From positions 1 through 28,903 of the IMG/VR virus record IMGVR_UViG_3300044736_000100: DNA of 28,903 nt, one strand, 5' to 3'. Made by a program: the position numbers and the translations under genes. Origin of the DNA: a virus. Below the pieces are notes generated by a model. The model worked only from the letters and a program-made list of their open reading frames with translations. It ran no database searches and had not been told where the DNA came from. Shown piece after piece: positions 1,486 through 24,816 of this stretch (position 1 is its first letter; each line of letters begins with the position of its first letter).

Positions 1486-1893
1486 ATGGGCGCACAAAAA
1501 GGCAAGGACCTGCTGGTCAAGATCGACGGCGGCGCAGGTTTTGTGACGGTGGCGGGACTGCGCAGCCGCAGGATCGCGTTCAATGCCGAACTGGTCGATA
1601 TCACGCATGCCGAGTCGGTGGACCGCTGGCGCGAACTGTTGGCCGGCGCCGGCGTCAGGCGCGCCTCGATCTCGGGGCGCGGGCTGTTCAAGGACGCAAG
1701 CTCGGACGCGCTGGTGCGGCAGGCGTTCTTCGACGGCGCCGTGAATCATGCCCAGGTGATCGTGCCGGATTTCGGCACCATCGAGGGCCTGTTCCAGATC
1801 TCCAGTCTGGAATTTGCCGGCGAGCACAATGGCGAAGTGACGTTCGACCTCGCGCTGGAATCGGCGGGCGCGCTGACGTTTACGGCGATGTAA
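1486..1893 (+). CDS. Major tail protein, TP901-1 family (GTA gp9 type)
   Basis: This 135-aa tail tube subunit starts 'MGAQKGKDLLVKID' with a good AAGGAG site upstream of the ATG. The family signatures are visible: 'VTVAGLRSRRIAFNAELVDITHAESVDRWRELLAGAG' and 'SGRGLFKDA', then 'FQISSLEFAGEHNGEVTFDLALESAGALTF' at the C-terminus. These subunits stack as rings to form the tube. Normally the tail chaperone gene follows directly; here the operon is broken after this stop and the chaperone does not begin until 6412, with a foreign-looking cargo island in between. Confidence 0.9.
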   Translation: MGAQKGKDLLVKIDGGAGFVTVAGLRSRRIAFNAELVDITHAESVDRWRELLAGAGVRRASISGRGLFKDASSDALVRQAFFDGAVNHAQVIVPDFGTIEGLFQISSLEFAGEHNGEVTFDLALESAGALTFTAM

Positions 1894-1934
1894 GGTGCCC
1901 CGACGCAGCATGCGGAAATGTTATTTTAAGGCGC

Positions 1935-1970
1935 TTGACTTTGTGAGAACATAATGAGAACATCGGGTTC
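1935..1970 (+). promoter_or_regulatory. Candidate SOS promoter with alphaproteobacterial LexA box
   Basis: GAAC-N7-GAAC lies at 1947-1961 (GAACATAATGAGAAC), which matches the direct-repeat LexA site known for alphaproteobacteria (GTTC-N7-GTTC on the other strand). It sits inside the spacer of a possible promoter: TTGACT at 1935-1940 and GAACAT at 1958-1963, 17 bases apart, reading rightward. A GTTC at 1967-1970 adds an inverted half-site. Downstream is only a short 22-codon reading frame at 2009-2077 that I do not recognise; transcription would continue antisense to the regulator gene and then into the rightward HD-nuclease operon. Confidence 0.6.
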
Positions 1971-2055
1971 CGCTGTCAAGCTAAAGTGCTGACGGCGCCG
2001 GGCTGCAAATGCACTCGGAGTCAGGGGATATGTCGTTTGAACGGGGAGTGCAAGG

Positions 2056-2469
2056 CTACAGAGGTAAACTGTATTGATCGGACTTGAGCTGAGAGAGTAT
2101 TGCCTGCGCCAATGGAGCAAATCGAATAATGATCGCTCCTTTGCCGATTTCTTCGTCGGCTTTTGGCATGGCAGTTCGAACCTCGCAGGTTCCGGACGTG
2201 AAGAGCAAGATTTTTTGACTCGCTTCTTCGAAGGTCATGCTGTGACAAATGTCAAAAACATTGTCCACTGTTTGGGCGAGATGGCCAACCGCACAACCGA
2301 GATCTCGGACCGCGGTCGTAAGCACGGCAAGGGCGAGAACGTCAGCCAGCTTAAATTTGCGCCCTTTTCCTTTGAGCGTTCGAAGACGCGGCATGGTTTT
2401 TCCCCAATATACAAAGGTGCCTTCTTCAATTCCGATCAGCTCACGCACTTGTTGCTGGGTGAATTCCAT
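2056..2469 (-). CDS. MerR-like HTH regulator, cargo island
   Basis: This 137-aa protein is read leftward. Residues 1-60 look like a winged helix-turn-helix of the MerR/AlpA kind: 'FTQQQVRELIGIEEGTFVYWGKTMPRLR' (helix-turn-helix), then 'GKGRKFKLADVLALAVLTTAVRDLG', in which the basic wing is followed by the 'DVLALAV' helix. The rest (about 65-137) has no recognisable effector domain. It may be a DNA-binding switch for the island. It is divergent from the 135-aa/HD-nuclease operon, sharing a 127-bp gap with a perfect 12-bp palindrome, an arrangement typical of autoregulated regulator-effector pairs. A rightward frame over the same bases is a shadow lacking such a motif. The family call is from motif only; the regulatory target is inferred. 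Confidence 0.65.
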   Translation of the reverse strand: MEFTQQQVRELIGIEEGTFVYWGKTMPRLRTLKGKGRKFKLADVLALAVLTTAVRDLGCAVGHLAQTVDNVFDICHSMTFEEASQKILLFTSGTCEVRTAMPKADEEIGKGAIIIRFAPLAQAILSQLKSDQYSLPL

Positions 2470-2523
2470 GAAACGATCTTTAGAGTTGCCCGGCTGGGGG
2501 GCGGTGCAAATCGAATACTAGCT

Positions 2524-2535
2524 CGGCTTAAGCCG
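2524..2535. promoter_or_regulatory. 12-bp perfect palindrome between divergent genes (operator candidate)
   Basis: CGGCTTAAGCCG is perfectly self-complementary and lies in the 127-bp divergent gap between the MerR-like gene (start 2469) and the 135-aa gene (start 2597). MerR-class regulators bind inverted repeats of about this kind, so it may be the operator for both directions. No clear promoter boxes could be fixed around it. Confidence 0.4.
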
Positions 2536-2596
2536 TTGTTAACATCGACTTCAGATGCTATTTCTACGTGCATGGCAAGCTGATTCGGGGCGAAAT

Positions 2597-3004
2597 ATGC
2601 GCATTTATTACGAATTAGCGAATTTCCTGCTTTCAGCTTGGAGACTCGGGCGGCCCGGCACGCGGCTTCCCACATCTCACGGTATTCTGGATCGTGCATT
2701 GGAGGAAGTTGCTGCGCAGTTGCCGCCGCGCTTCAAAGGGAAGCTGACTTTTGTTGAAACACCCATCGGGCGTCTGTGTCGGGAGCTTCCAGAGATTCTG
2801 CGAGCTGCGCAGGAAAGCTACCTTACGTCAGAGCCAAATCCGACGTACAGAACAGCTGAAGTGAAGTTATCAGCAGCAGCAGCATTTGATCTTCTGGACC
2901 GGCTCGACATCGATATTGAGGCCGCGAAAAATTTTGGTGAAGAACTTTCGAAATCGATTGATCGTCAAGTCAAGGCTGTGGCGACTGCCGTTCCAGCCGC
3001 TTGA
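2597..3004 (+). CDS. Hypothetical protein, first gene of HD-nuclease operon
   Basis: This 135-aa protein of unknown family starts 'MRIYYELANFLLSAWRLGRPG'. I take the ATG at 2597 and not an earlier one at 2555, because the earlier 14 residues lie in the shared regulatory gap and do not look conserved; a weak GGGG stretch precedes the chosen ATG. It is mostly helical in appearance, soluble and acidic-basic mixed, with 'RALEEVAAQLPPRFKGKLTFVETPIGRLCRELPEIL' in the middle and 'AAAAFDLLDRLDIDIEAAKNFGEELSKSID' near the end. It has no signal peptide or membrane segment. Only 9 bases separate its stop from the HD-nuclease start, so the two are very likely co-expressed and may work together, as a partner, sensor or antitoxin-like protein. 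That role is a guess from position only. Confidence 0.6.
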   Translation: MRIYYELANFLLSAWRLGRPGTRLPTSHGILDRALEEVAAQLPPRFKGKLTFVETPIGRLCRELPEILRAAQESYLTSEPNPTYRTAEVKLSAAAAFDLLDRLDIDIEAAKNFGEELSKSIDRQVKAVATAVPAA

Positions 3005-3013
3005 TCACCCCAT

Positions 3014-5518
3014 GTGAATATGGCCGCAAACGAGGATGAGCTATTCGACGAACTTGCGCGCGTCGCGCCGCGACTAAAAGTTGCCATTGACAGCCTTACT
3101 GAACAATGGTTGTCCAAAATTCGTGCCGATGAAAATACGGGGCCGACTCGCGACAAACAATTCAACGACGCGATTTGGGGTACAATCACCCTGTACCCTT
3201 GGGAGGTCGCGCTTATCGATACCCCTCTTTTTCAGAGACTTCGGGGCGTTAAGCAGAACGGCCTAGCCTACCTCGTTTTTCCTGGCGCGACCCACGATCG
3301 CTTCACACATATTTGCGGTGTGGTCGAGGCTTCGCAGCGGATAATGGAAAATCTTAATCGGAACGCGGCGGCACGCCGGCGCATTGGAGGGCATAGCAGA
3401 CATCCTCAACAACAAATCGATGCGCAAGACCAATATGTAATTCGCTTGGCAGCATTGATTCATGATGTCGGACACGGTCCGTTTAGCCATGCAATTGAGC
3501 CTGTACTTCGGCAGCATTACCTCAGTGAATTTGAAGCCCTTGAGCGCGTTTTGAGAGAGCGGTTCATCAATACTTATCACGTACCGGTTTCGGAATGTGT
3601 AGCAGCGTTGATCGTGTCCAGCCCCGCATTCTTGTCCGTAATGCTCAAGAAAATAATGTCGCCTGTTCTCGGCGGCAAATCTGAAAAAACAATCGTATAT
3701 CGCCTAGTGATGGCGCTCGTCGGAGCTTCGGACGGTACATTTTCAGGATGTCTCGGAGGTCTAATCAGCAATCAAATTGATGCAGACAAGCTCGACTATA
3801 TGGCGCGCGACGCTCATCATGCGGGGTTACCAATCGATTTTGATACCGACCGACTGATTACAAAGATGGAGCTTTTGACAGTAGAAGAAAACGCTCTATC
3901 CCGCCGGCTCCACGGATTGATAGAGCGTGTTCGGAAGCCTCGCCCTCCGAGCTATGTTGAAATCGGAATCTCATACGGGGGGACCGGAGCATTTGAGCAA
4001 ATGCTTATCGGGCGCATCTTTTTATATGACCGACTATATCATCATCATAAAGTTCGTACTGCAGATGCAATGGCTCAACGCCTCGTTCACTATGCCACAT
4101 CAAATGAAAAGGCCCTCGACATCAAAACTTTGTATGCCTCATTGCCCGATGATGCGGTAATAAGGGCGTTCGGAAACTTGATCGAAATCAAGAGCGAGAT
4201 TCCTGGCGAGACGATCAACTTTCCGACGTCAGAACAATCCACGCATCTCGCCAAGGCCCTTTTAGATCGTAAATTATATAAACGGGCCTTTGCCTTCGCG
4301 GGCCGTTATATTGCCGGCCTGGAGATTGAGACGCCAATTCAAGATACAGGCGAAGTCAGAGAGCCCGACAGTCTTCCCACGGAAGACGAGCAAGACGCCG
4401 AGCGCAGTCGCGTTATGCAGCGGGTGAACAATGACCTTGCTGATTTTTCGGGCCGCATTAGCGCTGAGCAAAGTATTGCGAAACTGGCTCGTGAGTTAAG
4501 CAGCCATCTCGACAAAAATTCACTTTTATACACGCAAGGTCAGACGTTAGAGGACCATCACGTCATCGTTGATTTGCCTCGTTCGCCTTATCCTGCGCGC
4601 ATCACGACGATTGCATGCCGAGAGAATGATTTGCTCGACGTGCCGGATTTATTCTACGATCCCGCGAGGTGGGCCGAGGTCTATAATATTCAACGCAGAA
4701 CCGCTTATGTATTTGCAAATCCCGCGCAGGTAGAAATAGTTGCCTTGGCGGCGCGAATTTGGTTTCTCCGGAAGTATCATTGCGTTCTTGATGAATCGGC
4801 GTATCGGTTTTCAACGACCGATGGCGTAATGAAGGAGAAGTGGATTGAACAGTTGAAAAAGTCTGGCGCCTTAACGAACGAGGAGAGCGGTTACTTACTA
4901 AGACCCCGATTAGTCCATGTTCCGTTTCGGTTGGAATGGAAGCACACCCCCTCTGGTTGGCGATCAATCTCTTCGAATTTTGTTGATGAATTCAACCGGA
5001 GCTTCAATGAGGTTCTCACAGAGGGAATACCGGCTCTCGCAGAACAAGACCTTCGGGCGACTCTCAGATGCATTTTTCAATACGTTCAGTGGCGCTCAGA
5101 GGATGGGTCTGTTACGAGTAGTTTTTCGAGCGAGAAAGAGCTGCAAAAGGATTTGGCGCGCTCGTTGCGCCACCAGTTTCTCGATGATATTACCGAGGGG
5201 AGTAAGGTCGCAGGAGGCGAGACTGATTTGATAGTCGGTCGCCGCGTTGTAATTGAAAACAAGTTGTTAAGAGATAAAACGGATGATCCGTTTACAGCAT
5301 CTGTTACGCGCGCAGGCTTGCAAGCAAGGAGATACGTTCTGCCAACTGGACAGAAATTCGCTATTACCGTCGTAGGCTATGCTTCAAAAACAGAGAACGG
5401 TAAGTTTTCTCCTCACGAGTGCGTGCGAGTACGTCAGCTCAAGGCACTCACTTCGCATTTTGCTGAAATAAGAATAGCCGTTAGATACGGCGACACTGTG
5501 CCTTCGGCCGCTAGATAA
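3014..5518 (+). CDS. HD phosphohydrolase fused to PD-(D/E)XK nuclease domain
   Basis: This protein is about 834 aa. The N-terminal half matches the COG1078 HD superfamily (dNTPase-like, SAMHD1-related): 'HDRFTH' with H99, the metal-binding 'HDVGHGPFSH' at 150-159 (H150, D151, H159), and 'QIDADKLDYMARDAHHAG' at 254-271 (D256, D261). The family region 'RIFLYDRLYHHHKVR' follows at 334-348. The C-terminal about 130 residues carry a restriction-endonuclease-like core: 'GGETDLIVGRRVVIENKL' with D738, E748 and K750, followed by a Q770-x3-Y774 pair, as in RecB/Cas4-type nucleases. Stand-alone COG1078 proteins are roughly 400-500 aa, so the nuclease half is an addition. Likely activities are dNTP or nucleotide hydrolysis plus DNA cleavage, in the cytosol; no substrate can be read from sequence. 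The start is GTG 3014 or ATG 3020 (neither has a strong ribosome site), coupled to the gene upstream. Codon use is AT-richer than in the tail genes. Good candidate for phage defence or exclusion. Confidence 0.82.
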   Translation: MNMAANEDELFDELARVAPRLKVAIDSLTEQWLSKIRADENTGPTRDKQFNDAIWGTITLYPWEVALIDTPLFQRLRGVKQNGLAYLVFPGATHDRFTHICGVVEASQRIMENLNRNAAARRRIGGHSRHPQQQIDAQDQYVIRLAALIHDVGHGPFSHAIEPVLRQHYLSEFEALERVLRERFINTYHVPVSECVAALIVSSPAFLSVMLKKIMSPVLGGKSEKTIVYRLVMALVGASDGTFSGCLGGLISNQIDADKLDYMARDAHHAGLPIDFDTDRLITKMELLTVEENALSRRLHGLIERVRKPRPPSYVEIGISYGGTGAFEQMLIGRIFLYDRLYHHHKVRTADAMAQRLVHYATSNEKALDIKTLYASLPDDAVIRAFGNLIEIKSEIPGETINFPTSEQSTHLAKALLDRKLYKRAFAFAGRYIAGLEIETPIQDTGEVREPDSLPTEDEQDAERSRVMQRVNNDLADFSGRISAEQSIAKLARELSSHLDKNSLLYTQGQTLEDHHVIVDLPRSPYPARITTIACRENDLLDVPDLFYDPARWAEVYNIQRRTAYVFANPAQVEIVALAARIWFLRKYHCVLDESAYRFSTTDGVMKEKWIEQLKKSGALTNEESGYLLRPRLVHVPFRLEWKHTPSGWRSISSNFVDEFNRSFNEVLTEGIPALAEQDLRATLRCIFQYVQWRSEDGSVTSSFSSEKELQKDLARSLRHQFLDDITEGSKVAGGETDLIVGRRVVIENKLLRDKTDDPFTASVTRAGLQARRYVLPTGQKFAITVVGYASKTENGKFSPHECVRVRQLKALTSHFAEIRIAVRYGDTVPSAAR

Positions 5519-5528
5519 GTCGAGACGT

Positions 5529-5762
5529 TCAGTGTCCATTGGAATCAGGCAGCGGATACAACTTTTTCAGTTCATCAATTGTTAGATGCTCTCTCTCCCT
5601 TGGCAGTTGCCATTTTTTAATGATCATTCGCTTCTTCCACTCTCCGATTCCGAGGTCCATCATCATCCATTTTTGAGGCTGGGCCGGCCCAGCAAGATTC
5701 CGGGCCCAAACGAAAAAGACTGCGGATTCTAGATCGTCATCTTCGACCTTCCTGTTGCTCAT
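5529..5762 (-). CDS. Small hypothetical protein, cargo island
   Basis: This 77-aa protein is read leftward and converges with the HD-nuclease gene (10 bases between stops). It starts 'MSNRKVEDDDLESAVFFVWARN' and is rich in Trp, Met and Lys in the middle ('QKWMMMDLGIGEWKKRMIIKKW'), ending 'LTIDELKKLYPLPDSNGH'. It has no signal peptide, membrane segment or motif that I recognise. The composition is protein-like (charged, few rare runs), which favours a real gene over chance. It follows the other leftward small gene after about 40 bases and may share its transcript. Function unknown. Confidence 0.5.
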   Translation of the reverse strand: MSNRKVEDDDLESAVFFVWARNLAGPAQPQKWMMMDLGIGEWKKRMIIKKWQLPREREHLTIDELKKLYPLPDSNGH

Positions 5763-5803
5763 TCTAATATCCGTTATTGGGCTGCCAAAGCCTGATCTGC
5801 CAA

Positions 5804-6127
5804 TCAGCGCTTACGCCTGAGTCGAACTTCGCAACTAGTTCCCTCTAGCCATAGAACCTCGGCAACGAATGCATGGCCCGCTAGGATGCAATCCGCCACT
5901 ACCGCCTTTACTGATGAACCAATTGAACCTGCTCCTGAGCCGGTCTTTGCCATTACGACAAGTAAAAGTGGTGGCCCCGTTCTCAATTCCACGGGGAGAA
6001 TATCCCCCACGTGAACTGTCGAAAGAGCCGTACGGTTGGGCAGGTCAAGTAGCAGCGTCTCGACGAGATCGCACGGGTCTCGCACCTGCCCTGCTCCACG
6101 AGACCTTCTTGTATTCGACAATCTCAC
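5804..6127 (-). CDS. Small hypothetical protein, cargo island
   Basis: This protein of about 107 aa is read leftward. The frame is open from TTG 6157, but I choose GTG 6127 because an AAGGAAG site lies 5 bases before it. The N-terminal part is basic ('RLSNTRRSRGAGQVRDPCDL'), followed by a beta-rich segment: 'LPNRTALSTVHVGDILPVELRTGPPLLLVVM', 'GSGAGSIGSSVKAVVADCILAGHAFVAEVLWLEGTSCEVRLRRKR'. This looks like a compact soluble all-beta or alpha/beta domain with a Gly/Ser-rich loop. No known family could be named with confidence. It lies upstream of the 77-aa gene in the same direction, and a palindrome at 6204-6221 lies about 77 bases upstream of its start. Confidence 0.5.
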   Translation of the reverse strand: MRLSNTRRSRGAGQVRDPCDLVETLLLDLPNRTALSTVHVGDILPVELRTGPPLLLVVMAKTGSGAGSIGSSVKAVVADCILAGHAFVAEVLWLEGTSCEVRLRRKR

Positions 6128-6203
6128 TGCGTCTTCCTTGCAGATTTTTGCCGACAAAGACTAAACATACATCCAAACGTAAATATCCGCAATTTCGGAG
6201 ATT

Positions 6204-6221
6204 GTAGGAGCGTGCTCCTAC
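6204..6221. promoter_or_regulatory. Palindrome at right edge of cargo island
   Basis: Arms GTAGGAGC and GCTCCTAC are separated by 2 bases. It lies upstream of the leftward 107-aa gene and may be its operator, or a scar of the island boundary; there is no T-run, so it is not an intrinsic terminator in itself. The rest of 6128-6411 holds no gene that I can support; the rightward frame here lacks any family feature. Confidence 0.3.
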
Positions 6222-6411
6222 TCCATCTCCTTGCTTGTACCCCGGTTTTGCAAGCTCGGCAATTTGGTCCGTGTCCGCGCGATGAGTATCGACGCAGCCG
6301 TTGCCAAGTTCCGGGCGCTGCAGACTTTGAAGCTAGAATCTTACGCTCCGTATTGAAGAATAGACGGAGCAGAGCGAAGCGCGCGTCGGTGAGAGGATGA
6401 AGGAAAACACC

Positions 6412-6732
6412 ATGCCCAACAAACACCGCGGCGAGATCGAGGCCGAGATCGGCGGCGTCAGGCATACGCTGGTGCTCACGCTTGGCGCGCTGGCGGAGCT
6501 GGAGTCCGCATTCGCAGCGGGCGACCTGATAGCGCTGGCGGAACGCTTTGGCACGGGGCGGTTGTCCGCGCGCGACCTGGTCCGCATCATCGGCGCCGGC
6601 CTGCGCGGCGCCGGAGCGACGATCAGCGACGACGAGGTCGCGGCAATGACGGTGGATGGCGGCGCCTCCGGCTATGTGCGGATCGCGGCCGAACTGATCG
6701 CCGCTACGTTCGAAGGCACGTCGGCGCCGTGA
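6412..6732 (+). CDS. GTA gp10-type tail protein / tail assembly chaperone
   Basis: This 106-aa protein has the GTA gp10 family (PF11836) pattern: 'HRGEIEAEIGGVRHTLVLTLGALAELESAFAAGDLIALAERF', then 'LSARDLVRIIGAGLRGAGA' and 'GYVRIAAELIAATFEG'. It helps to assemble the tail tube around the tape measure. I choose ATG 6412, which has AAGGA 7 bases upstream; an earlier in-frame ATG at 6397 would have its GAGAGG directly touching the codon. This gene marks the resumption of the tail operon after the cargo island; it overlaps the next gene by GTGA. Confidence 0.85.
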   Translation: MPNKHRGEIEAEIGGVRHTLVLTLGALAELESAFAAGDLIALAERFGTGRLSARDLVRIIGAGLRGAGATISDDEVAAMTVDGGASGYVRIAAELIAATFEGTSAP

Positions 6733-9427: not shown

Positions 9428-9590
9428 AGGCTCGTTCCCCGGACGCAGCGCAGCGCGTAGCACTTCGCGGAGCGGTGCGCTGTAGAGCCGGAGCCCCGGT
9501 ACCTTAAACCTCAAGAACCGGGGTCCCGGTTCTGCGAAGCGGCACTCCGCGAAGTGCTACGCGCCGCATCGCGCCCGGGACACGAGAGAC
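9428..9590. repeat. Palindromic repeat, family F
   Basis: Complex repeat: the outer CTCGTTCCCCGG / CCCGGGACACGAG arms enclose GCGTAGCACTTCGCGGAG / CTCCGCGAAGTGCTACGC arms and an inner CCCCGGT / ACCGGGG pair. It covers the whole gap between hub and NlpC/P60 genes. Confidence 0.88.
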
Positions 9591-10038: not shown

Positions 10039-10287
10039 GTAGGGTGGCAAAGGCGCGCTTGCGCCGTGCCCACCATCCGATGCGTCATCCTGAGGTGCTC
10101 GCCGCCCTTCGCGGCGAGCCTCGAAGGATGGAAGCGCGTCGTGGCCCATCCTTCGAGACGCCGCGCAAGCGCGCGGCTCCTCTCGCGATAACGGCGAAGC
10201 CGTTACGCGGGGATGACGGTTGTGTATGTCTGGTGGGCACGCCATCGGACGCGCATTCGCGCGATCCGCTCGCTTTGCCCACCCTAC
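10039..10287. repeat. Palindromic repeat, family C copy 1, split by a nested family A copy
   Basis: The outer arms are TAGGGTGG(C)AAAGGCGCGC... and ...CGCTTTGCCCACCCTA, with inner GCCCACCATCCGATGCG / GCACGCCATCGGACGCGC segments. Between the arms lies family A (10083-10219), whose own arms begin CGTCATCCTGAGG and end ATGACGG. The family C copy at 14175-14273 is intact and much shorter, so the nesting is best read as insertion of A into C. Confidence 0.85.
10083..10219. repeat. Palindromic repeat, family A copy 2 (nested in family C)
   Basis: Starts CGTCATCCTGAGGTGCTCGC, includes GCCTCGAAGGATGG and CCATCCTTCGAGACGC inverted, and ends GGGGATGACGG. It sits inside the loop of a family C repeat. 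The right side also holds a small CGATAACGGCGAAGCCGTTACG hairpin not present in the other A copies. Confidence 0.85.
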
Positions 10288-14562: not shown

Positions 14563-14738
14563 TCTGCGTCCTCAAGGTCATTCAGGAATGTCCTGCCGGC
14601 AGCGACCAATGAGCTGCAGCTAGCCAGCTTCGTCGAGAAACCGGCCTTAGTTTACACCCGGCGTTTTTCAGCCGGCAAGATGCGGAGCGGCGCAGCCCAT
14701 AGTCGCAATTTTTCCGACGCTCTCGGTTTTGGACGCTC

Positions 14739-14818
14739 GTCAATTGCGAGCGAAGTGAAGCAATCCAGAAGGCGGACGAAGCGCTGGATTGCTTCGTCGC
14801 TTCGCTCCTCGCAATGAC
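14739..14818. repeat. Palindromic repeat, family B copy 2
   Basis: TTGCGAGCGAAG...GCAATCC and GGATTGC...CTTCGCTCCTCGCAATGAC are inverted arms, as in 6924-7003. It lies in the 393-bp gap 14563-14955, which otherwise contains repeat A copy 3 and about 175 bases (14563-14738) in which I see no gene. Confidence 0.88.
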
Positions 14819-14831
14819 AATAACATACTCT

Positions 14832-14934
14832 CCGTCATCCTGAGGTGCTCGCCGCGCCAGCGGCGAGCCTCGAAGGACGTGCCACGCCGCCGCCCTTCGA
14901 GACGCGCGCAAGAGCGCGCTCCTCAGGGTGACGG
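14832..14934. repeat. Palindromic repeat, family A copy 3
   Basis: CCGTCATCCTGAGGTGCTC starts the left arm and GCGCGCTCCTCAGGGTGACGG ends the right; the inner GCCTCGAAGGA/CCCTTCGAGAC parts are inverted. It ends about 20 bases before the DUF2793 gene. Confidence 0.88.
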
Positions 14935-14955
14935 CTACTGCATGGACCACCCATC

Positions 14956-16806
14956 ATGACCGACACACCGAACCTCGGGCTGCCCTTCATCGAGGGCAGC
15001 CAAGCGCAGAAGCATGTCACGCATAACGAGGCGCTGCGGATCCTCGATGCGGCGATCCAGGTCGCGGTGCTGGATCTGACGCGGACGGCGCCGCCGTCGT
15101 CACCGGTCGACGGCGAGCGCCATGTCGTGGCGGCATCGGGCGCGACCGGGGCGTGGGCGGGACACGGCAATGCGATCGCGACCTGGCAGGATGGCGCGTG
15201 GGCATTCCTGGTGCCGCGCACCGGCTGGTGCATCTGGTCGGTGGCGGACAATATCGTCTTCGTATTCGACGGCACCCATTGGCGCGATCTGCGCGACCTG
15301 CCGGTGACGCTGGACAATGCGGTTCACGTCGGCGTCAACACCTCAGCGAGTTCGCCCAATCTGCTCAGCGTCAAGTCCAATGCGGCGCTGCTCACGGCGA
15401 TTCCACTCGCCGAGGGCGGCAGCGGCGACGCGCGGCTGCAAATCTCCAAGGAGAGCGCGGCGAAAACCGCGTCGGTGTTTTTCTCCGACGCGTTTTCCGG
15501 ACGCGCCGAGTTCGGCCTCGTCGGCTCCGATGCGTTCAAGCTGAAAGTGTCGGCCGACGGCTCTGCCTGGGTCGAGGCGTTCAATATCGACCAGACCACC
15601 GGCAATCTCGCGCTGCCGCGCGGGCTTATCCTGACCGGCGTCATTTCGCCGCCGCAGATCACGGCGAACCAGAATGACTACAACCCGACCGGCGTCGCCA
15701 CCGCCTCAGCGCTGCAGCTGTCGTCCGATGCGTCGCGCAACATCACGGGGCTGGCCGGCGGCGCGGAGGGACGCCTCGTCAGCCTCATCAATATCGGCAG
15801 CCAGCCGATCGTGCTGGCGGATGAGAGCTCATCGTCATCGGCCGCCAACCGCTTCACGCTTGGCGCCAGCCTGACGGTTGCCGCAAAACAGGCGGCGCTG
15901 CTGCGTTATGACGGCGCCGCCGCGCGCTGGCGGCTGCTCGCGGGCGCAAGCGGATTGCTGGCGGCGGCAAACAATCTTTCCGATCTCGCAAGCACAGCCG
16001 CCGCGCGTGCGAATCTCGGCGTCCGCGAGCAACTGGCGGCGAACCGCACTTACTATGTGCGCAACGACGGCTCCGACAGCAATAACGGCCTCGCCAATTC
16101 AAGCGCTGGCGCGTTTCTCACCATCCAGAAGGCGATCGACACCGCCGGGGCGCTGGACCTGTCGATCTACAACATCACCATCCAGGTCGCCGACGGCACT
16201 TACACGGGAACGGTGACGGTGACCGGCCCCTGGGTCGGTTCCGGCAGCGTCACCCTGCAGGGCAATACCACGACGCCGGGCAACGTCGTGATCACGACGT
16301 CCGGCACCGGCGCTGCCGCGCTTTCGGTTCAATCGGGCGGCCGTCTTTCCGTTACCGGTCTCAAACTCGTTTCGTCGGGCGCCGGGGCGACGGCGGGATT
16401 GAGGTCGGCCGGTTCGGCGATCCTGGTGACCGGCGCGATGGATTTCGGCGCCGCGAACCGCCAGATGCAAGCGAACGCGAGCGGCAGCATCACGGTTGGC
16501 GTCGGCGTCACCTACAACATCAGCGCGGGCGCGGTAACGCATATTTTCTGCTCGTCGGGCGGTAACGTCGGGATCGAAGGCTGCACCATCACCACGACAG
16601 GGACGGTGGCGTTCTCCGGCGCTTTCCTGACGTCATCCTACGCCGGCGTCGTGTTCATTGATTCGAACAACTTCGCAGGCGCGAGCGCTACCGGGTCGCG
16701 CTACTCGATCACCGCAAACGGCGTGGTCTACACCGCCGGCGCAGCGACCACCTATTTGCCGGGCAATGCGGCCGGATCGACCGCCAGCGGCGGGCAATAT
16801 GTCTAG
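14956..16806 (+). CDS. DUF2793 tail fibre with C-terminal beta-helix
   Basis: This 616-aa protein starts 'MTDTPNLGLPFIEGSQAQKHVTHNEALRILDAAIQVAV', the clear DUF2793 signature, through 'GAWAFLVPRTGWCIWSVADN...FDGTHWRDL' (residues 1-115). The middle contains a repeated 'TGVASASALQLSSDAS'-type linker and 'NNLSDLASTAAARANLG', a motif common in phage fibres. From about 360 a pectate-lyase-like right-handed beta-helix begins: 'YYVRNDGSDSNNGLANSSAGAFLTIQKAIDTA', then Gly/Thr-rich rungs to the C-terminus. It is likely the receptor-binding fibre attached to the baseplate protein upstream. It has no signal peptide, unlike the following spike genes. Confidence 0.85.
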   Translation: MTDTPNLGLPFIEGSQAQKHVTHNEALRILDAAIQVAVLDLTRTAPPSSPVDGERHVVAASGATGAWAGHGNAIATWQDGAWAFLVPRTGWCIWSVADNIVFVFDGTHWRDLRDLPVTLDNAVHVGVNTSASSPNLLSVKSNAALLTAIPLAEGGSGDARLQISKESAAKTASVFFSDAFSGRAEFGLVGSDAFKLKVSADGSAWVEAFNIDQTTGNLALPRGLILTGVISPPQITANQNDYNPTGVATASALQLSSDASRNITGLAGGAEGRLVSLINIGSQPIVLADESSSSSAANRFTLGASLTVAAKQAALLRYDGAAARWRLLAGASGLLAAANNLSDLASTAAARANLGVREQLAANRTYYVRNDGSDSNNGLANSSAGAFLTIQKAIDTAGALDLSIYNITIQVADGTYTGTVTVTGPWVGSGSVTLQGNTTTPGNVVITTSGTGAAALSVQSGGRLSVTGLKLVSSGAGATAGLRSAGSAILVTGAMDFGAANRQMQANASGSITVGVGVTYNISAGAVTHIFCSSGGNVGIEGCTITTTGTVAFSGAFLTSSYAGVVFIDSNNFAGASATGSRYSITANGVVYTAGAATTYLPGNAAGSTASGGQYV

Positions 16807-16818
16807 ATCATTCGACCT

Positions 16819-16946
16819 TCCCCGCAACGTGAACCGGGCGATCCGCCTCGTTCCCTAACTTTCAGGACATCTTGACATGATCTCACGACGCATCCTTGCG
16901 GCGGTCGCACTGCTGTGCGCGCTGGTCATTCCGGCGCATGCGCAAA
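16819..16946 (+). repeat. Spike leader element copy 1 (5' UTR plus signal-peptide codons)
   Basis: 128-bp direct repeat with 18782-18909, differing at only 3 positions. It starts CCCCGCAAC, contains a 5' UTR of about 58 bases and continues through the ATG and signal peptide codons to GCGCAAA. In another frame the UTR encodes 'LPRNVNRAIRLVP' plus stop, a tail-end peptide of some lost upstream gene. Degenerate relatives lie at 23098, 24644 and 25740. Confidence 0.9.
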
Positions 16947-18365
16947 CCTACAACCCGATCACCGATCCGGCCTACGCGGGCGGCGCTCGATGCAACGGGG
17001 CGGACGATTCCGCCGCGATTCAGGCGGCCATCAACGCGCTGCCGGCGCAGAACGGCTATATCGACGTGCCGCCGGGATGCCTGTCGTATTACGGAACACC
17101 GCTTTCGAGCGCCGGGAAGAACTTCGTGACGGTGCGCGGTTACACGCCGATCGACAGCGGCTCCGGCAGCAACGTATCCGGACTCGTGTACACGGGGACC
17201 GGGGCGCGAGCGATCGACATCCGTGACAGCACCGGGTGGAGGTTCGAAAAGCTGTGGCTGATGTACAACAATCCCAGCTTCGCGGGCGCGATCATCGACG
17301 CGGGCGGGCTCACGATCGGGGCAAGCGTCTCCAGCGGTGTTGTCCTGAGAGAAAATCTGCTTGGCCCGCTCAACGCCACGTCCGTTCCGAACCCGTTGGC
17401 GACGTGCCTGCTGGTCGATCAGACCATCTCTTCGCACAGCTACCACAACAGATACGAGGTGCGCGCCGGCGATCCACGGCAACCTGATCAGCGGCTTCAA
17501 CGACGTGTTCAACAGCACGCTCGACGAGTTCACAAATTCTATTGGCTCTCCGGTGATCGAGTGCGGCGTGAGCTGGAATTTCACCAGCGCCACGGTTGAA
17601 TCCGATTATCTGGGACGGGCGCTCTTCTTCCAGAACTCGCCCTCGCTGCCATGCATCGGCATGACGATGAACACGAACTGGTACGGCGACGTCGTCGGCA
17701 GTGCAATATCGGCGTGGTTCCAGCTGACCGCGACCGGCTTCAAGGCCATCGGCGATGCGATGGGAGGTTCGTCCACGTCCACCGCATACGCCATCGTCGG
17801 CGGGAGCGGATACTCCTGGGAGGGCGGTAACTACAACACGTTCTACAACGGGTTCGGTTGCAACAGCAATCCCACGGGGATGCGATGGACGACCAACACG
17901 TTCGCGAACGTGACCAACATAGTCGTCCCGTTCTCGCCGTGCCTCAACGCCACGGCTGAAAACAACACCCCGGAAATTCCCGGAGGCATCGCGACATTCC
18001 CGCTTCCATCATGGACGGCCGTGCTCTCGCCAACTGTCACGCCGGCTGGGTTTACTTACAACAGCACAACGGGGGGAAACAGCGGCTGGTACAAGAAGAG
18101 CACCAACGTCACGGACGTTTGGCTCACCGCGACCATCACCGCGAACGGCACGGGAACCGGCACCCTGACAATGTCCGGGCTGCCGTTCACCCTCGCCAGA
18201 ACGTGCACGTTCACAGGAACGACCTCGATAGGTGGTGGGACCATCGCCATCACCGGTCTCGGCACCAACGGAACCGGAGCCGTGGCGCTGTTTAGCACCA
18301 GCGGATCGTATCCCTTCATTACGGGATCAGTCATCAACGTGTTCGGGTCTTGCCCGACCAACTAA
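16877..18365 (+). pseudogene. Exported beta-helix tail spike-like gene, frameshifted
   Basis: Frame 1 (16877 to about 17460) encodes a 22-residue Sec signal ('MISRRILAAVALLCALVIPAHA', cleavage AHA-Q), then 'YNPITDPAYAGGARCNGADDSAAIQAAINALPAQNGYIDVP', the start of a pectate-lyase-like beta-helix. Homology to the intact copy (18840) then continues in another frame from about 17470: 'HGNLISGFNDVFNSTLDEFTNSIGSPVIECGVSWNF' to the C-terminal 'FPLPSWTAVLSPTVTPAGFTY...VFGSCPTN' (stop 18363-18365). The shift is +1 between about 17450 and 17485, with no homopolymer there. Each half alone is a broken protein. It may be a true pseudogene or a sequencing error; a programmed slip has no visible signal. It shares with its paralog the C-terminal jelly-roll-like end and downstream small exported gene. 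Confidence 0.75.
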
Positions 18366-18821: not shown

Positions 18822-18909
18822 CTTTCAGGATATCTTGAGATGATCTCACGACGCATCCTTGCGGCGGTCGCACTGCTGTGCGCGCTGGTCATTCCGGCGC
18901 AGGCGCAAA
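18782..18909 (+). repeat. Spike leader element copy 2
   Basis: Matches 16819-16946 at 125 of 128 bases by direct reading. It covers the 58-base 5' UTR and the signal peptide codons of the spike gene at 18840. The three differences are two in the UTR next to the ATG and one near the signal cleavage site. Confidence 0.9.
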
Positions 18910-21185
18910 AGACCAGGGCGCAACTCAATACGGAAATCGGAACTTCGTTCCCGGACAACAATTTTCCGCTGCTGTTACGGAATGTCACGAATGACATCGT
19001 CAATTCGATCATGCCCACCGCACCCGTGGTGTCCGGCAACCTGGCGTGCTTCAGCGGCACGACGGGACTGCTGCAGGATTGTGGGTCGGTTCCGAATACT
19101 TTGACGGTCGGCACATCCGTTATTGCGGGCGGCACGAGCAACGGATTACTCTACAACAATTCCGGCATTTTGGGAAATTTGGCAACCGCCAACAGCGGTG
19201 TTGTGGTTACCTCAAATACGGGCGTCCCTTCGATTACGAGCGGCCCGCTTGGGATTGATCACGGCGGCCTTGGCGCAACTTCATTTACCGCAAACCTTCC
19301 GATCATAGGTAATGGATCTTCCAATCCAATAGTTGGTTCGCGCTCCGGCAACACGACGGTGTTTGCGACTTCAAATGGCGCGCTAACCGCCAACGATTGC
19401 GTCAAGGTCGATGCCGGCGGCAACTTTGTGGACGCCGGTGCAACGTGCGGGGCGAATGCCAACACGCCTTATGTGCAGGACTTCCTTGCCGGCACGGGTT
19501 TTACGGCCGGGACCAGTACGTCGATCACGCTGATGAACTCGCCATCAGCCGCGGCGCTTCTCGCGGTCAGCTTCGACGGCGTTGTGCAGTCGCACAACAC
19601 CTGGTCGCTGGCCGGCCCGGTCGTCACCTTCAACGCCGCCATCCCTGCGAATACGCGGGTGGTCGAAGCGCACTGGTACGCGCCCTCGACCACGGCGGGC
19701 GTCGGCAATCTCAACGGCGCATCCGGGGCGCTCAACCTTCTCGGCGTCAACGGGGCGACGGTTGCGACGCTTGGCCAGAATATCTCCGTCGGGCTCACGC
19801 CGTTCCTCTACAACCCCGTCACGAATCCGGCCTATGCGGGCGGAGCCAAGTGCAACGGCTCGAACGACAGCGCCGCGATCCAGGCGGCCATCAACGCCTT
19901 GCCGGGGCAGGGCGGCTATATCGACATTCCGGGCCTGTGCTACTTCGCGACCCCGCTGGATTTCAGGGGACACCCCAACCTTATCCTGCGAGGACAGGGC
20001 GGTCTCAGTGGCGGTGCTAACACACCGTCGCTCCTGATCTATACGGGAGGCTCGGCACCCCGCGCGCTGGATTTCCGAGATAGCAGTGCTGTCCTCATCG
20101 AGGGTCTGAGCATCATCGCGACAAACCCGAGCTTCACAGGATTTTTGATAGACGCCGCGATGAATATCGCAGCCACAGAGAATATCAAATTCAGCGACCT
20201 CACAATGGGGGCTAACTACGCAGGCGGCACCGCGCCAGGCTGCATAAATATGTCGGGAGCGATTTCATTCATCATCGATCGCGTGAACTTTGCTCGATGC
20301 AGTCCGGGCATTTACGGTCCTGCAGCAGGGATCGGGGTCATTTCGAATAACCAGTTCGTCAATACCATCGGCTCGGCGATCCATGAGTGCGGCGCCAACT
20401 GGCTGCTGACGAATAACGCTTTTGAGCCCGACGTGAACGGCGTGCCGAACGCGATGACCAACTCGCCGTCCTTGCCCTGTAACAACATGACCTCAATCGG
20501 TAATTGGCACGGCGACGTTACTTCGCTGTCTACCGGCTCCAGTAATTGGTACAATATCACGAGCAACGGCTTCATTTCGATCAATGACTTCGTTGCCGCC
20601 GACGTTATCATAGGCGGCGATCGGACTTTCGGCGCTTACAACATCATTGGGGGAGGTGGGTACACCTTCCGGGGCTCCACCTATCAGAACCTTTTTTACG
20701 TGATAGGAGGCAATGGCCTTGCGGTTGGTTGCAGGCTTGAAGGTCTCACCACTACGGGTCAGGTCGCTACTATATTCGGCCCCGGAGCGCAGTGCATCGA
20801 CACGACTGCGGAGAACAATAATCCGAACGTCGTCGTGCCGCTGCCTTCATGGGTCCCGGTGCTAACGCCCTCGATCACCCCCGGATCGTTCGCATATTCG
20901 ATCAACTATGCAAACTATCGTAGGCGCGGCAACTACACGATGTTCTGGCTTGAGGTGGTTATCAACACGCTCAGTACCGCTGCTGGACGCATCGATATTT
21001 CCGGCCTGCCGGTCACCCTTGCGCAAGACTGTCCAATTTCCGGATGGGATGCCCTCGGCAAGCTGGCAATCTCCGGCTCCGGCGGTCAGGGATCAACGTC
21101 GTTTTCAATCTTTAAGTACGACGGCGGCTTTCCGGCGGTCAGCGGCTCTGTCCTGAGGCTTCACGCGACTTGTCCAACCAACTAA
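18840..21185 (+). CDS. Exported beta-helix tail spike-like protein, intact copy
   Basis: This 781-aa protein has signal peptide 1-22 ('MISRRILAAVALLCALVIPAQA'). Residues 25-55 ('TRAQLNTEIGTSFPDNNFPLLLRNVTNDIVNS') match the N-terminal adaptor seen in many phage fibres. A fibre stalk with 'LGIDHGGLGATSF' and 'YVQDFLAGTGFTAGTSTSITL' runs to about 320. From about 323 ('YNPVTNPAYAGGAKCNGSNDSAAIQAAINALPGQGGYIDIP') a pectate-lyase-like beta-helix follows, and a C-terminal domain 'PLPSWVPVLTPSITPGSFAY...LHATCPTN' ends it. The beta-helix and end are homologous to the frameshifted copy upstream, but about 300 residues of stalk are additional here, inserted just after the shared leader. A Sec signal on a tail spike is odd; it may instead act in the periplasm or outside on host polysaccharide. 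Confidence 0.8.
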   Translation: MISRRILAAVALLCALVIPAQAQKTRAQLNTEIGTSFPDNNFPLLLRNVTNDIVNSIMPTAPVVSGNLACFSGTTGLLQDCGSVPNTLTVGTSVIAGGTSNGLLYNNSGILGNLATANSGVVVTSNTGVPSITSGPLGIDHGGLGATSFTANLPIIGNGSSNPIVGSRSGNTTVFATSNGALTANDCVKVDAGGNFVDAGATCGANANTPYVQDFLAGTGFTAGTSTSITLMNSPSAAALLAVSFDGVVQSHNTWSLAGPVVTFNAAIPANTRVVEAHWYAPSTTAGVGNLNGASGALNLLGVNGATVATLGQNISVGLTPFLYNPVTNPAYAGGAKCNGSNDSAAIQAAINALPGQGGYIDIPGLCYFATPLDFRGHPNLILRGQGGLSGGANTPSLLIYTGGSAPRALDFRDSSAVLIEGLSIIATNPSFTGFLIDAAMNIAATENIKFSDLTMGANYAGGTAPGCINMSGAISFIIDRVNFARCSPGIYGPAAGIGVISNNQFVNTIGSAIHECGANWLLTNNAFEPDVNGVPNAMTNSPSLPCNNMTSIGNWHGDVTSLSTGSSNWYNITSNGFISINDFVAADVIIGGDRTFGAYNIIGGGGYTFRGSTYQNLFYVIGGNGLAVGCRLEGLTTTGQVATIFGPGAQCIDTTAENNNPNVVVPLPSWVPVLTPSITPGSFAYSINYANYRRRGNYTMFWLEVVINTLSTAAGRIDISGLPVTLAQDCPISGWDALGKLAISGSGGQGSTSFSIFKYDGGFPAVSGSVLRLHATCPTN

Positions 21186-21940: not shown

Positions 21941-23083
21941 TCACGGGCGCGCGGTAGAAAAGTGAACTATTTCTTCCACGTAGCCGCGCCGTAACCAGTA
22001 AGGAGCGCGGCTGGCGGGTGTTGGTCCCATCAAATCCGCAACGGTGAATTTATTGGCTTCATGGTTTACCGAAAAGAAAATGTCTGATCGCGACTCGATG
22101 GCTCGCCAGTAGTCATCGGCGGCTCTTCGTCCGATCTCGGTCAGAGAGTCGATGTTTACGATTAAGTCATATCGTGAAGTGTCACTCAGGAATGTGGAGG
22201 CCGAGATGAGCTTGATCTGCGATGGCGAGCCAGGTTCACCTGCCAGCGCGACATGATTTTCGCCAATTGTCCTTCCAAGGAAGTAACCTTGCGCAAGTGA
22301 ACTAATCGGGATGTCCACCACCGAATAGTCAAGAATTCCGAACTGGCGCGCATAGAGGGCGGTTCGACCGAGACCTCCGCCGATTTCAAGAATGCGAGGG
22401 TTGGGTAGCCCTGACACAAGCTGCGAAATCCGCCACGCCTGATAGAGGGCTTGCGGGACGCGAAACGATGCAATGCCGCGTTCAGTGACGAGGCCGTATT
22501 CGGAGGGGAACGGATTGGGAATCGAAAACTTGAAGCCGATAGCCGCGTCGATCTGCGATAATACCGTTTCACAGTCGAAGCTGGTTCCGCTTCCCATGCG
22601 ATAGTTTTCAGGAAAATCAACCCGACGCGCCTTAATCGCCTCCGCGAGCGTCACAAACGCATCAAGCACCAATCGAGGCATGTGTTGATCTTCGATGCGC
22701 ATGCCGCCGTCGCGAAGCGATTTTGCGAGACTGTCAAAACCATACAGAAAGTCCGACGCAACGGGGTTGCGAAATAGCTGTTGAATTCTGGCGCTATCGT
22801 TCGAATTCAGTATCGCAACGATGTCCTGATGGCGATCCGAATAAATATCCGACCAGATGCCCGATGGAGTTTCTTGTCGCGATTTGTGGCTCTGGACGAG
22901 GCGAGCGATTAGCGAAGCATCTTCGGCTGACTCCCCTTTAGCGTAGGCAGCTTTCGCCGGAAGGTCGCTCATCCTGTGTTGATATCGATATCTCATCATC
23001 GGCCCCTTGAGCAGCTTTCCTGCTGTCTCTTCAAGAAGGGGCATATGTCGAGCGACGCGGCGCAATAGCGATTTGATGCTCAT
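21941..23083 (-). CDS. SAM-dependent sugar O-methyltransferase-like protein
   Basis: This protein of about 380 aa is read leftward. I choose ATG 23083 ('MSIKSLLRRVARHMPLLEETAGKLL') over a far upstream codon, because the longer reading runs through the leader repeat. It has a class I methyltransferase motif I 'PRILEIGGGLGRTALYARQFGILDYSVVDIP' at about 229-260, preceded by a long helical part, as in the putative sugar O-methyltransferases (NanM-like) of polysaccharide loci. The later region 'SDTSRYDLIVNIDSLTEIGRRAADDYWRAI' is also family-like. It may methylate a surface sugar and so change phage or host surface properties. It converges with the spike operon and starts 14 bases from leader remnant 3. 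Confidence 0.75.
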   Translation of the reverse strand: MSIKSLLRRVARHMPLLEETAGKLLKGPMMRYRYQHRMSDLPAKAAYAKGESAEDASLIARLVQSHKSRQETPSGIWSDIYSDRHQDIVAILNSNDSARIQQLFRNPVASDFLYGFDSLAKSLRDGGMRIEDQHMPRLVLDAFVTLAEAIKARRVDFPENYRMGSGTSFDCETVLSQIDAAIGFKFSIPNPFPSEYGLVTERGIASFRVPQALYQAWRISQLVSGLPNPRILEIGGGLGRTALYARQFGILDYSVVDIPISSLAQGYFLGRTIGENHVALAGEPGSPSQIKLISASTFLSDTSRYDLIVNIDSLTEIGRRAADDYWRAIESRSDIFFSVNHEANKFTVADLMGPTPASRAPYWLRRGYVEEIVHFSTARP

Positions 23084-23097
23084 AATAAAAGTTTTTC

Positions 23098-23168
23098 TAC
23101 CCCGCAACCACCCCGCGAACAAGCCTGACGGCAGGTGCGTTGCGGGCGATGAGTGGACGCCATGATCT
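23098..23168 (+). repeat. Spike leader element copy 3 (degenerate)
   Basis: Starts TACCCCGCAACCACC and continues to GCGAACAAGC (27 bp shared with 24644 and 25740). The leader core ends in ATGATCT at 23162-23168, the same start as the intact leader, 62 bases from CCCC. Immediately after ATGATCT the sequence jumps to the 3' module of a lost spike, out of frame. It lies 14 bases upstream of the leftward methyltransferase start and so may contain its promoter. Confidence 0.55.
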
Positions 23169-23498
23169 ACCTGTACGCCGACCGTCACGGCGGGGTCTGG
23201 GGCTTTCACGACCGTTTCGGCGACCGGTCGCTACAAGCGGATCGGCAAAACTTTCTTTGTCGTGATCAAGATCACCATTACTACCAACGGCGCCGCGGGT
23301 ACGTACATTAGCGCGACGCTGCCTGTCACCGACCAAGGCTCTACCATCAACCAGGTGATCTTTGGACGCGATAGTTTCGGTATAGCAGTCCTCGCAAATA
23401 TGAGCGGCGGGACGACGTTCATCAAAAAATATGATGCTTCTTATCCCGGCTCCGACGGTGCGCAGATCACGCTGCAGGGTGTTTACGAAGCGCAGTAG
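23166..23498 (+). pseudogene. 3' remnant of a lost tail spike gene
   Basis: The frame reads 'TCTPTVTAGSGAFTTVSATGRYKRIGKTFFVVIKITITTNGAAGTYISATLPVTDQG...YDASYPGSDGAQITLQGVYEAQ', the jelly-roll-like C-terminal module common in phage fibres and related to the 'SWTAVLSPTVT'/'SWVPVLTPSIT' ends of the two spikes here. Before it, 'DEWTP' and an in-frame stop (23163-23165) show that the frame is broken. Only the last about 110 codons remain. The end overlaps the 3' end of the leftward acyltransferase gene by 32 bases. Confidence 0.7.
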
Positions 23499-24633
23499 CG
23501 ATGGCAACGGGGGCGCGTTCGGCCGAAGCCATCGGCTGGGCGCCAAACATGCCCGGCGTGACAACTTCCCGGCTTAGCCGCTTGCGCAGGCGCATCACCG
23601 GCCGCTCGACAAAAACAAAAACAAGCTGGGCCGCCAGGATTGCCGAACCAAGCAAGATCAGAAGCATTTCACCAAAATCAAACACGGCTCCCGACGCCTT
23701 GAGTGCAGAGGCAACCGCCATCATGATCGGACCGTGAATGAGAAAAACCGGGTAGGAGATATCGCCCAACCAGCGGTCTAACTGCAACTCCCGGCCATCC
23801 TTCGCCAGATGGCACGCCATGATGACCGCAAACATCAGTCCGCCGGCGAGCGTGACGAGGCTACCGGGATAGTTCCAGATGAAAACCTTTTGCGAAAATT
23901 TATAGTCGTTGCCGGCGATGAATAGGATCAGCACTACGAGCCACATCGCCCAAAGCGGAACCTTGACGGCAAGTCGTCTGATCTCCCTTTCGTGGACCGC
24001 CAGCGCTGCGCCCATCAGCCATGATCCGAACAGCACAAGTGAGAAGCCGTAATTGAAAGGCAACAGAAAATATAGAAGGATCCCGGCAACGAGGCTTACG
24101 GGAACAGCCAACAGAGCCGGCGATAGCGCGAGCACCGCGCCCCACACGGCATAAAACAGAAGTTCGAAACTAACGGTGTAGGTCGGGGAGAAAGAGCCGA
24201 ATTGCCCGTAATAGCCCGACATACCGAACAAGCTGGCGATAAAATTGTGCAGATTGAGACCGTGGTTCCAGACCACGACGCGATTGGGGCTACCGAGCAA
24301 CACCCATTCGACGAGGCCTGCAAAGCAGGCGCAGACGATCAGGCTCGGAAAAAGCCGGGTTGCGCGCAGCGCGGCATAGCTGCCGATGCTGAAACTGGAT
24401 TTCGTCGATCGAGCGATGCAATAGCCGCTAATGACAATGAAGCCCAAGACATAATCGAACCCGCCAAACTGAAACAGCGGAAACAAGAATTTATAAAAGC
24501 CATCAGACGTCGTTGGGTAAAGCTGTGAGATATCCGACGCGTGCGTGAGGGCGACGCCAAGCGCCAAGAGCCCGCGCAGCCGATTGATAAACGGGTTCAT
24601 ACGCGCGAGCTGAGGGAGGGAAGCGGCGTGCAT
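23467..24633 (-). CDS. Acyltransferase 3 family membrane protein (OafA-like)
   Basis: This 388-aa protein is read leftward (ATG 24633; ATG 24600 at 'MNPFINRLRG' is an alternative). It has about ten hydrophobic segments and the PF01757 opening 'INRLRGLLALGVALTHASD', with the conserved Arg and His, and later 'VISGYCIARS' and 'WLGDISYPVFLIHGPIMMAVA'. Such integral inner-membrane enzymes O-acylate surface glycans such as O-antigen, capsule or exopolysaccharide. In prophages they are known as seroconversion genes that block superinfection. It is placed between spike remnants, overlapping the upstream remnant's end, and its start is 10 bases from leader remnant 4. A second function is unlikely; the sugar target cannot be told. 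Confidence 0.85.
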   Translation of the reverse strand: MHAASLPQLARMNPFINRLRGLLALGVALTHASDISQLYPTTSDGFYKFLFPLFQFGGFDYVLGFIVISGYCIARSTKSSFSIGSYAALRATRLFPSLIVCACFAGLVEWVLLGSPNRVVVWNHGLNLHNFIASLFGMSGYYGQFGSFSPTYTVSFELLFYAVWGAVLALSPALLAVPVSLVAGILLYFLLPFNYGFSLVLFGSWLMGAALAVHEREIRRLAVKVPLWAMWLVVLILFIAGNDYKFSQKVFIWNYPGSLVTLAGGLMFAVIMACHLAKDGRELQLDRWLGDISYPVFLIHGPIMMAVASALKASGAVFDFGEMLLILLGSAILAAQLVFVFVERPVMRLRKRLSREVVTPGMFGAQPMASAERAPVAIATALRKHPAA

Positions 24634-24643
24634 GTGTCTCTAC

Positions 24644-24670
24644 TACCCCGCAACCACCTTGCGAACAAGC
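24644..24670 (+). repeat. Spike leader element copy 4 (degenerate)
   Basis: The 27-bp segment from TACCCCGCAACCACC to GCGAACAAGC resembles those at 23098 and 25740 (two changes in the middle). In frame with the downstream fibre remnant it encodes 'LPRNHLANK', and copies 3 and 5 encode 'LPRNHPANK' and 'LPRNHPTNK' in the corresponding frames. No ATGATCT is left here. It lies 10 bases upstream of the leftward acyltransferase ATG. Confidence 0.55.
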
Positions 24671-24816
24671 GCCTACCCCAACTTTTTCACCTGTACGGCG
24701 GTGGCGGCAGCGGCGGTGTCCCGGTCAATTCCGCCAGTGCGTTCGCTGGCGGCAACGGCATGACCGGGGTCGTGTTCATCACCGAGTTCTGTTCGCAACA
24801 GGTGGCCGGGCACTAA
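24671..24816 (+). pseudogene. 3' remnant of a lost tail fibre gene
   Basis: The frame reads 'FHLYGGGGSGGVPVNSASAFAGGNGMTGVVFITEFCSQQVAGH' and a stop. The Gly-rich 'GGGGSGG...GGNGMTGVVFITE' end is typical for C-termini of phage fibres. No start or upstream domain is present. It overlaps the 3' end of the leftward methyltransferase by 38 bases, as the other remnant does with the acyltransferase. Confidence 0.6.

Follow-up and report, generated by a model that had tools for sequence, protein, structure and literature searches.

A SAMHD1-type core joined to a C-terminal PD-(D/E)XK-like domain: a candidate two-gene defence module inserted in a probable gene transfer agent cluster

Organization of the Locus

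The window, that is, the whole stretch of DNA analysed here, is one linear IMG/VR record with a length of 28,903 bases, and its features are collected in Table 1. It contains a gene for an 834-aa protein that joins an HD, SAMHD1-type core to a C-terminal PD-(D/E)XK-like domain, and this gene forms an operon with a 135-aa gene, with 9 nt separating the end of the latter from the start of the former. Both genes lie in a 4.5-kb low-GC insert, as homology to relatives that lack it ends at about position 1893, the stop codon of the tail-tube gene, and returns at about 6409, and the GC content of the insert is 0.49–0.52 versus 0.67–0.69 in the flanks.

Table 1. Coordinates of the features of the module, the insert, and the adjoining genes in the window
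Feature	Position	Strand	Basis or remark
Tail-tube gene (g9)	1486..1893	+	Pfam Phage_tail_2, E 1.5e-45
Low-GC cargo insert between tail-tube (g9) and g10 genes	1894..6408	.	Homology breakpoints, GC
LexA-box-like GAAC-N7-GAAC (alphaproteobacterial) within TTGACTTTGTGAGAACATAATGAGAACAT	1947..1961	.	Left end of insert
MerR-like regulator gene, 137 aa, divergent	2056..2469	-	Alignment with eight divergent upstream genes
Partner gene, 135 aa, with the conserved motifs PTSHGILDRAL and SEPNPTY	2597..3004	+	Alignment; model
HD/SAMHD1-type core and PD-(D/E)XK-like domain fusion, 834 aa	3014..5518	+	GTG start
SAMHD1-type core, residues 45–633	3146..4912	+	SAMHD1 alignment, structure match, invariance
C-terminal PD-(D/E)XK-like domain, residues 695–834	5096..5515	+	Conservation and model; no library match
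D738	5225–5227	+	
E748-N-K750	5255–5263	+	
Q770	5321–5323	+	
Y774	5333–5335	+	
Small ORF in insert, 77 aa	5529..5762	-	No Pfam match
Small ORF in insert, 117 aa	5804..6157	-	No Pfam match; relative in L006
GTA-gp10 gene	6397..6732	+	Pfam Phage_TAC_11 (GTA-gp10), E 2.8e-31

The genes that flank the insert follow an order like that of g6 to g15 (these labels, g9 and g10 included, follow the RcGTA gene numbering) and include Pfam matches to GTA-gp10 and to a GTA holin, the head genes of the cluster being outside the window. Of 199 related genomes, 116 contain the tail-tube gene, each as a single copy; this pattern is more in keeping with a gene transfer agent than with a prophage, and an active prophage is thus the less likely host element. 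A location inside a tail operon had been recognized in an earlier sequence-only reading, and correctly so; more precisely, gene content and order point to a probable RcGTA-type gene transfer agent cluster, which looks vertically inherited and carries a clean insert. The suggestion that a phage uses the module for superinfection exclusion is not supported for this reason, and also because most relatives of the module are found on plasmids or chromosomes.

In 108 relatives of the cluster (78 viral contigs and 30 genomes, possibly overlapping), the spacing between g9 and g10 ranges from -12 to 381 bp and no comparable insert is present, so that a cargo hotspot at this junction is not supported; among the relatives checked, the window version alone holds foreign cargo there. 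Neither end repeats nor a target-site duplication were found at the insert, no integrase was recognized within it, scans for promoters and terminators returned scores at the level of shuffled sequence, and comparison of its left and right ends with 150 related genomes yielded only short homologous matches. The LexA-box-like promoter at the left end points into the antisense of the MerR-like gene, and in a different genome (L143) a similar stretch of DNA precedes an ssb gene.

Elsewhere in the window, repeated intergenic elements of REP-like appearance (~900–1075, 9430–9590, 10083–10182, and 14738–14962) recur at junctions of related gene transfer agent clusters, some of them g9/g10 junctions. 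A pair of paralogous ORFs, tail-fibre-like or beta-helix-like (16877–18365, which appears frame-shifted, and 18840–21185), begin with near-identical Sec-type signal peptides (MISRRILAAVALLCALVIPA). The minus strand from 21941 to 25609, with the fibre genes on one side and the holin region on the other, encodes acyltransferase-3 and methyltransferase-like proteins, possibly surface-modification cargo.

The SAMHD1-Type Core

The 834-aa protein matches the Pfam families HD (E 7.2e-6) and HD_assoc_2 (E 1.4e-7), with no Pfam match to a SAM domain, and phmmer aligns it with SAMHD1 4bzc at E 3.1e-25. Its AlphaFold model has a mean pLDDT of 82.8, and residues 45–633 of this model were matched via fold search to the whole SAMHD1 core, with Z ~31 over ~440 residues and an rmsd of 3.4–3.8 (chain 9mr6 is a fungal SAMHD1). 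As the match spans all of these residues, the apparent middle region of the protein corresponds to the C-terminal lobe of SAMHD1 and not to a separate domain.

The metal site of the core comprises H99, H150–D151, and D258, and its catalytic residues are H154, H159, and E162; in the phmmer alignment, H99, H150, D151, H154, H159, and D258 are paired with SAMHD1 H167, H206, D207, H210, H215, and D311, respectively. The positions of the residues named in the sequence-only reading were right throughout. However, D256, which it had listed among the HD motifs, is not the aligned metal ligand, since SAMHD1 D311 pairs with D258 instead, even though D256 is invariant as well. All of these metal and catalytic residues, together with D256, are invariant in the 12 nuclease-type homologues and in 17 sequences covering both branches of the family (see below). 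Moreover, the putative allosteric residues K48, N51, D69, Q74, and R77 align with SAMHD1 K116, N119, D137, Q142, and R145, and K48, D69, Q74, and R77 are invariant in the 17 sequences from both branches. In SAMHD1, K116, D137, Q142, and R145 bind the activating GTP. Judged by alignment and model, the region is a complete SAMHD1-type dNTPase core in which the metal, catalytic, and GTP-allosteric residues are all conserved, and it would be expected to hydrolyse dNTPs.

The C-Terminal PD-(D/E)XK-Like Domain

The C-terminal residues that had been proposed as a nuclease motif, D738, E748-x-K750, Q770, and Y774, are invariant in 12/12 homologues with 33–37% identity, and N749 likewise. Invariant positions in these homologues include E707, Q711, E728, G729, G734, G735, D738, E748, N749, K750, Q770, R772, R773, and Y774, and as only 15 of the 140 columns of the domain are invariant, the chance of all five named residues being so is ~1 in 100,000. 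The last ~130 residues of the model also show a nuclease-like topology, with a helix at 707–720, strands at 726–728, 739–741, and 745–751, a second helix at 767–778, and a last strand at 782–790. This alpha-beta-beta-beta-alpha-beta order is that of PD-(D/E)XK proteins, in which D738 opens strand 2 and the E-x-K motif lies in strand 3.

Profile searches of Pfam with this domain gave no convincing family, the best being REase_MTES_1575 (E 0.063) in one member, and a sequence search of the PDB with the C-terminal profile gave no match. In the fold search with the whole model, the list was filled with SAMHD1, which covers residues 45–632 only. Conservation and modelled topology nevertheless argue strongly for a PD-(D/E)XK fold, and the domain is likely to act as a nuclease. 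The earlier observation of an HD core and a PD-(D/E)XK-like C-terminus within one protein is thus confirmed.

The Partner Gene and Other ORFs of the Insert

The 135-aa gene, which had been suggested as a partner of the large protein, deserves this name, as it is found directly upstream in all nuclease-type loci examined (17/17), which belong to Alphaproteobacteria, Acidobacteriota, and Desulfosarcina. Its product had no match in Pfam or PADLOC searches, and its model (pLDDT 89.5) gave weak fold matches (Z <=6.0), mostly to winged-helix domains, including Wadjet and Lamassu chains, so that it may possibly be a winged-helix protein. When the partners of the two branches of the family were compared by hhalign (probability 53, E 1.3e-4), the result was no more than suggestive of homology between them.

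The MerR-like gene is usually divergent and located upstream of the module in the loci compared. In the alignment of this regulator, 8 of 9 members match the MerR_1 profile, the 137-aa sequence of the window being the one that does not. Regarding the two small ORFs, membership of the 77-aa one in the system is not supported. The 117-aa one has a relative (L006 10320–10622; tblastn 32%, E 2.6e-9) in the Methylocystis parvus locus that carries a truncated module, where it stands ~0.9 kb upstream of the partner gene, beside PfkB-kinase and QueC-like genes.

Relatives, Sister Branch, and Genomic Neighbourhood

Full-length homologues with ~35% identity are encoded on plasmids of Desulfosarcina, Rhizobium, and Sphingobium, and further ones in genomes of Alphaproteobacteria and Acidobacteriota and on a second viral contig. 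The Methylocystis parvus copy (L006 11941–13254) is a truncated one that has an IS6 transposase gene beside it, and three homologues, all from MAGs, are each split into two frames at differing places (L013 7977–10466, L014 7995–10422, and L017 1593–4090), being either assembly errors or decayed genes. The family is very patchy, yet found in more than one phylum, and carriers are rare: among 297 genomes from its family and 385 from its class, the anchor genome is the only one.

In a sister branch, the same SAMHD1-type core is followed by a different C-terminus, a PRTase-CE domain (Pfam PF24390, E down to 1.5e-32) that also matches PADLOC PRTase_III-A (E 1.2e-21). A small partner gene of 130–140 aa is present in every PRTase-type locus read, on the opposite strand in Nocardioides. 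One PRTase-type operon (L002 7235–10369) lies in a phage tail operon, near the tail-tube gene and in antisense orientation to the tail genes; members of the two branches have been inserted at similar places in different elements. Moreover, a prophage (L108) contains only the bare core, which follows a 129-aa ORF and has an adjacent integrase. The tree of the core is compatible with a single origin for each type of C-terminus, its long branches making the deep forks uncertain. A separate viral contig (L109 5479–8079) encodes an 866-aa protein with a kinase-like N-terminal part and a SAMHD1-like HD domain.

Several relatives of the module have immune systems as neighbours, as seen from PADLOC matches that were read locus by locus and not set against random loci. 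The module is near a CBASS operon with NucC in Desulfosarcina (L003), beside Septu, a CBASS cyclase, and Hachiman in Rhizobium (L004), and adjacent to Septu in Sphingobium CFD-2 and Litoreibacter (L005 and L011), and there are restriction or modification genes near it in Aestuariivita and Enterovirga (L014 and L016). Several other loci read, such as L008, L010, and L012, had no obvious defence neighbour. These defence-island neighbours, the mobility of the module, and its patchiness support the earlier suggestion of a role in defence, which we infer to be the best account of its function.

Comparison with Known Systems

SAMHD1 and the bacterial HD dNTPases of Enterococcus faecalis (2o6i/4lrl) and Aquifex (2hek) share the core fold, the HD metal site, and the H/E catalytic residues with the 834-aa protein, in which the residues of the GTP allosteric site of SAMHD1 are aligned too. 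In comparison with these SAMHD1-like dNTPases, the protein has additional N-terminal helices, a C-terminal nuclease-like domain, and a constant small partner gene.

The CloA protein of Clover is an anti-phage dNTPase switched by nucleotides, with metal residues and an HE dyad equivalent to those of the 834-aa core, and CloB is a nucleotidyltransferase that makes p3diT (PMC12265719). Clover likewise consists of two genes, the dNTPase being the large component; however, a C-terminal effector domain such as that of the 834-aa protein is not mentioned for CloA in the text searched (PMC12265719). Assignment of the module to Clover was rejected, since the 135-aa partner is no recognizable nucleotidyltransferase, with no Pfam match and different conserved motifs. 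The anti-phage dGTPase (PADLOC dGTPase; NF041026) belongs to the same HD dNTPase superfamily and gives weak matches over the HD motif, at 16.2 bits versus a cut-off of 400, whereas the module has another core subfamily, a fused effector, and a partner; it was thus not assigned to this system either.

Proteins with PRTase and winged-helix domains are effectors of type III retrons (PMC12548924), which links the C-terminus of the sister branch independently to phage defence. The sister branch shares the PRTase-CE domain and a small partner gene with type III-A retrons, the SAMHD1 core taking the place of the reverse transcriptase and ncRNA, and none of the loci read was seen to have a reverse transcriptase gene. 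The window protein, in contrast, has a nuclease-like domain and no PRTase domain, and does not qualify as a type III retron accessory. No library searched describes the core–effector architecture, and a literature search that covered few subscription papers found no description of it.

Proposed Function and Alternative Explanations

We propose that the module is a defence system of two genes, directed against phages (or mobile elements), with a SAMHD1-like core that controls or joins a swappable effector, a proposal that we consider about as likely as not. In such a system, the SAMHD1-type core would bind and hydrolyse dNTPs, and through its conserved allosteric site it could react to the nucleotide pool, the state of which is changed by phage replication. 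As the effector, the PD-(D/E)XK-like domain at the C-terminus would cut DNA in a manner coupled to the state of the core, so that the core would license the nuclease. The 135-aa partner, possibly through a winged-helix fold, could hold the complex in check or dock it on DNA, as a brake or an adaptor, and the divergent MerR-like gene might control expression. Sensing by the core, the role of the partner, and defence itself are thus predicted features of the system.

The combination of a constant core with an exchanged C-terminus (nuclease, PRTase-CE, or none) favours the core as a sensor or switch, and sensing is argued from this exchange and from residue conservation. The narrower account, in which the SAMHD1-type core acts, with the small partner, as a nucleotide-pool sensor/switch of an exchangeable C-terminal effector (nuclease or PRTase-CE), is tentative and in our view possible rather than probable. 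The sequence-only reading had instead described one protein that joins two strategies, so that the HD core would deplete dNTPs while the nuclease cuts DNA, and the small partner or another factor would then have to do the sensing. Both domains are indeed there, each with a conserved active site; with its catalytic site intact, the core could have such an activity, and defence by dNTPases is known (PMC12265719). Nevertheless, this can no longer be the sole reading, since the C-terminus is swapped on a constant core, as is usual where an unchanging sensor or regulator is paired with differing effectors, and since the SAMHD1 allosteric residues are retained as well; we regard it as unlikely.

Roles outside a dedicated defence system seem less probable still. 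The constant presence of the short upstream gene and the occurrence of the family on plasmids and other mobile elements could also suggest toxin–antitoxin or plasmid addiction, with the large protein as the toxin, the 135-aa protein as its neutralizer, the MerR-like protein as autoregulator, and phage protection as a secondary effect; however, such a toxin would be unusually large and contain two enzymes, the neighbours are immune systems, and the Pfam search revealed no antitoxin family, which makes this decidedly improbable. A cellular enzyme for the dNTP pool or for DNA repair, with no immune role, would agree with the presence of a LexA-box-like site at the insert's left end and with the participation of SAMHD1 and bacterial HD proteins in dNTP homeostasis and repair, but it is made quite improbable by a distribution that is extremely patchy and mobile, a GC content unlike that of the surroundings, and immune systems nearby. 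There is still less reason to expect that an immune module, once captured, is now put to use by the gene transfer agent, be it to lyse the host or to process DNA. Its position exactly between two structural genes of the cluster, on the same strand, would be in line with this, and LypABC of Caulobacter, which is required for release of the gene transfer agent (PMC13236601), provides an example, yet the module is absent from 108/108 relatives of the cluster and the family is mostly found outside gene transfer agents, so that we consider this very improbable.

Significance of the Core–Effector Architecture

Anti-phage dNTPases are already known, but the details of their activation are known for few of them, Clover being the case found. 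If the account of the core as a nucleotide-pool sensor is true, bacterial SAMHD1 would be a sensor and not merely an effector that depletes nucleotides, and the combination of a constant core with exchanged effectors makes nucleotide-pool sensing by a SAMHD1-like core directly testable. Moreover, with an immune-type module inside a gene transfer agent cluster, the cluster could spread the module or make use of it.
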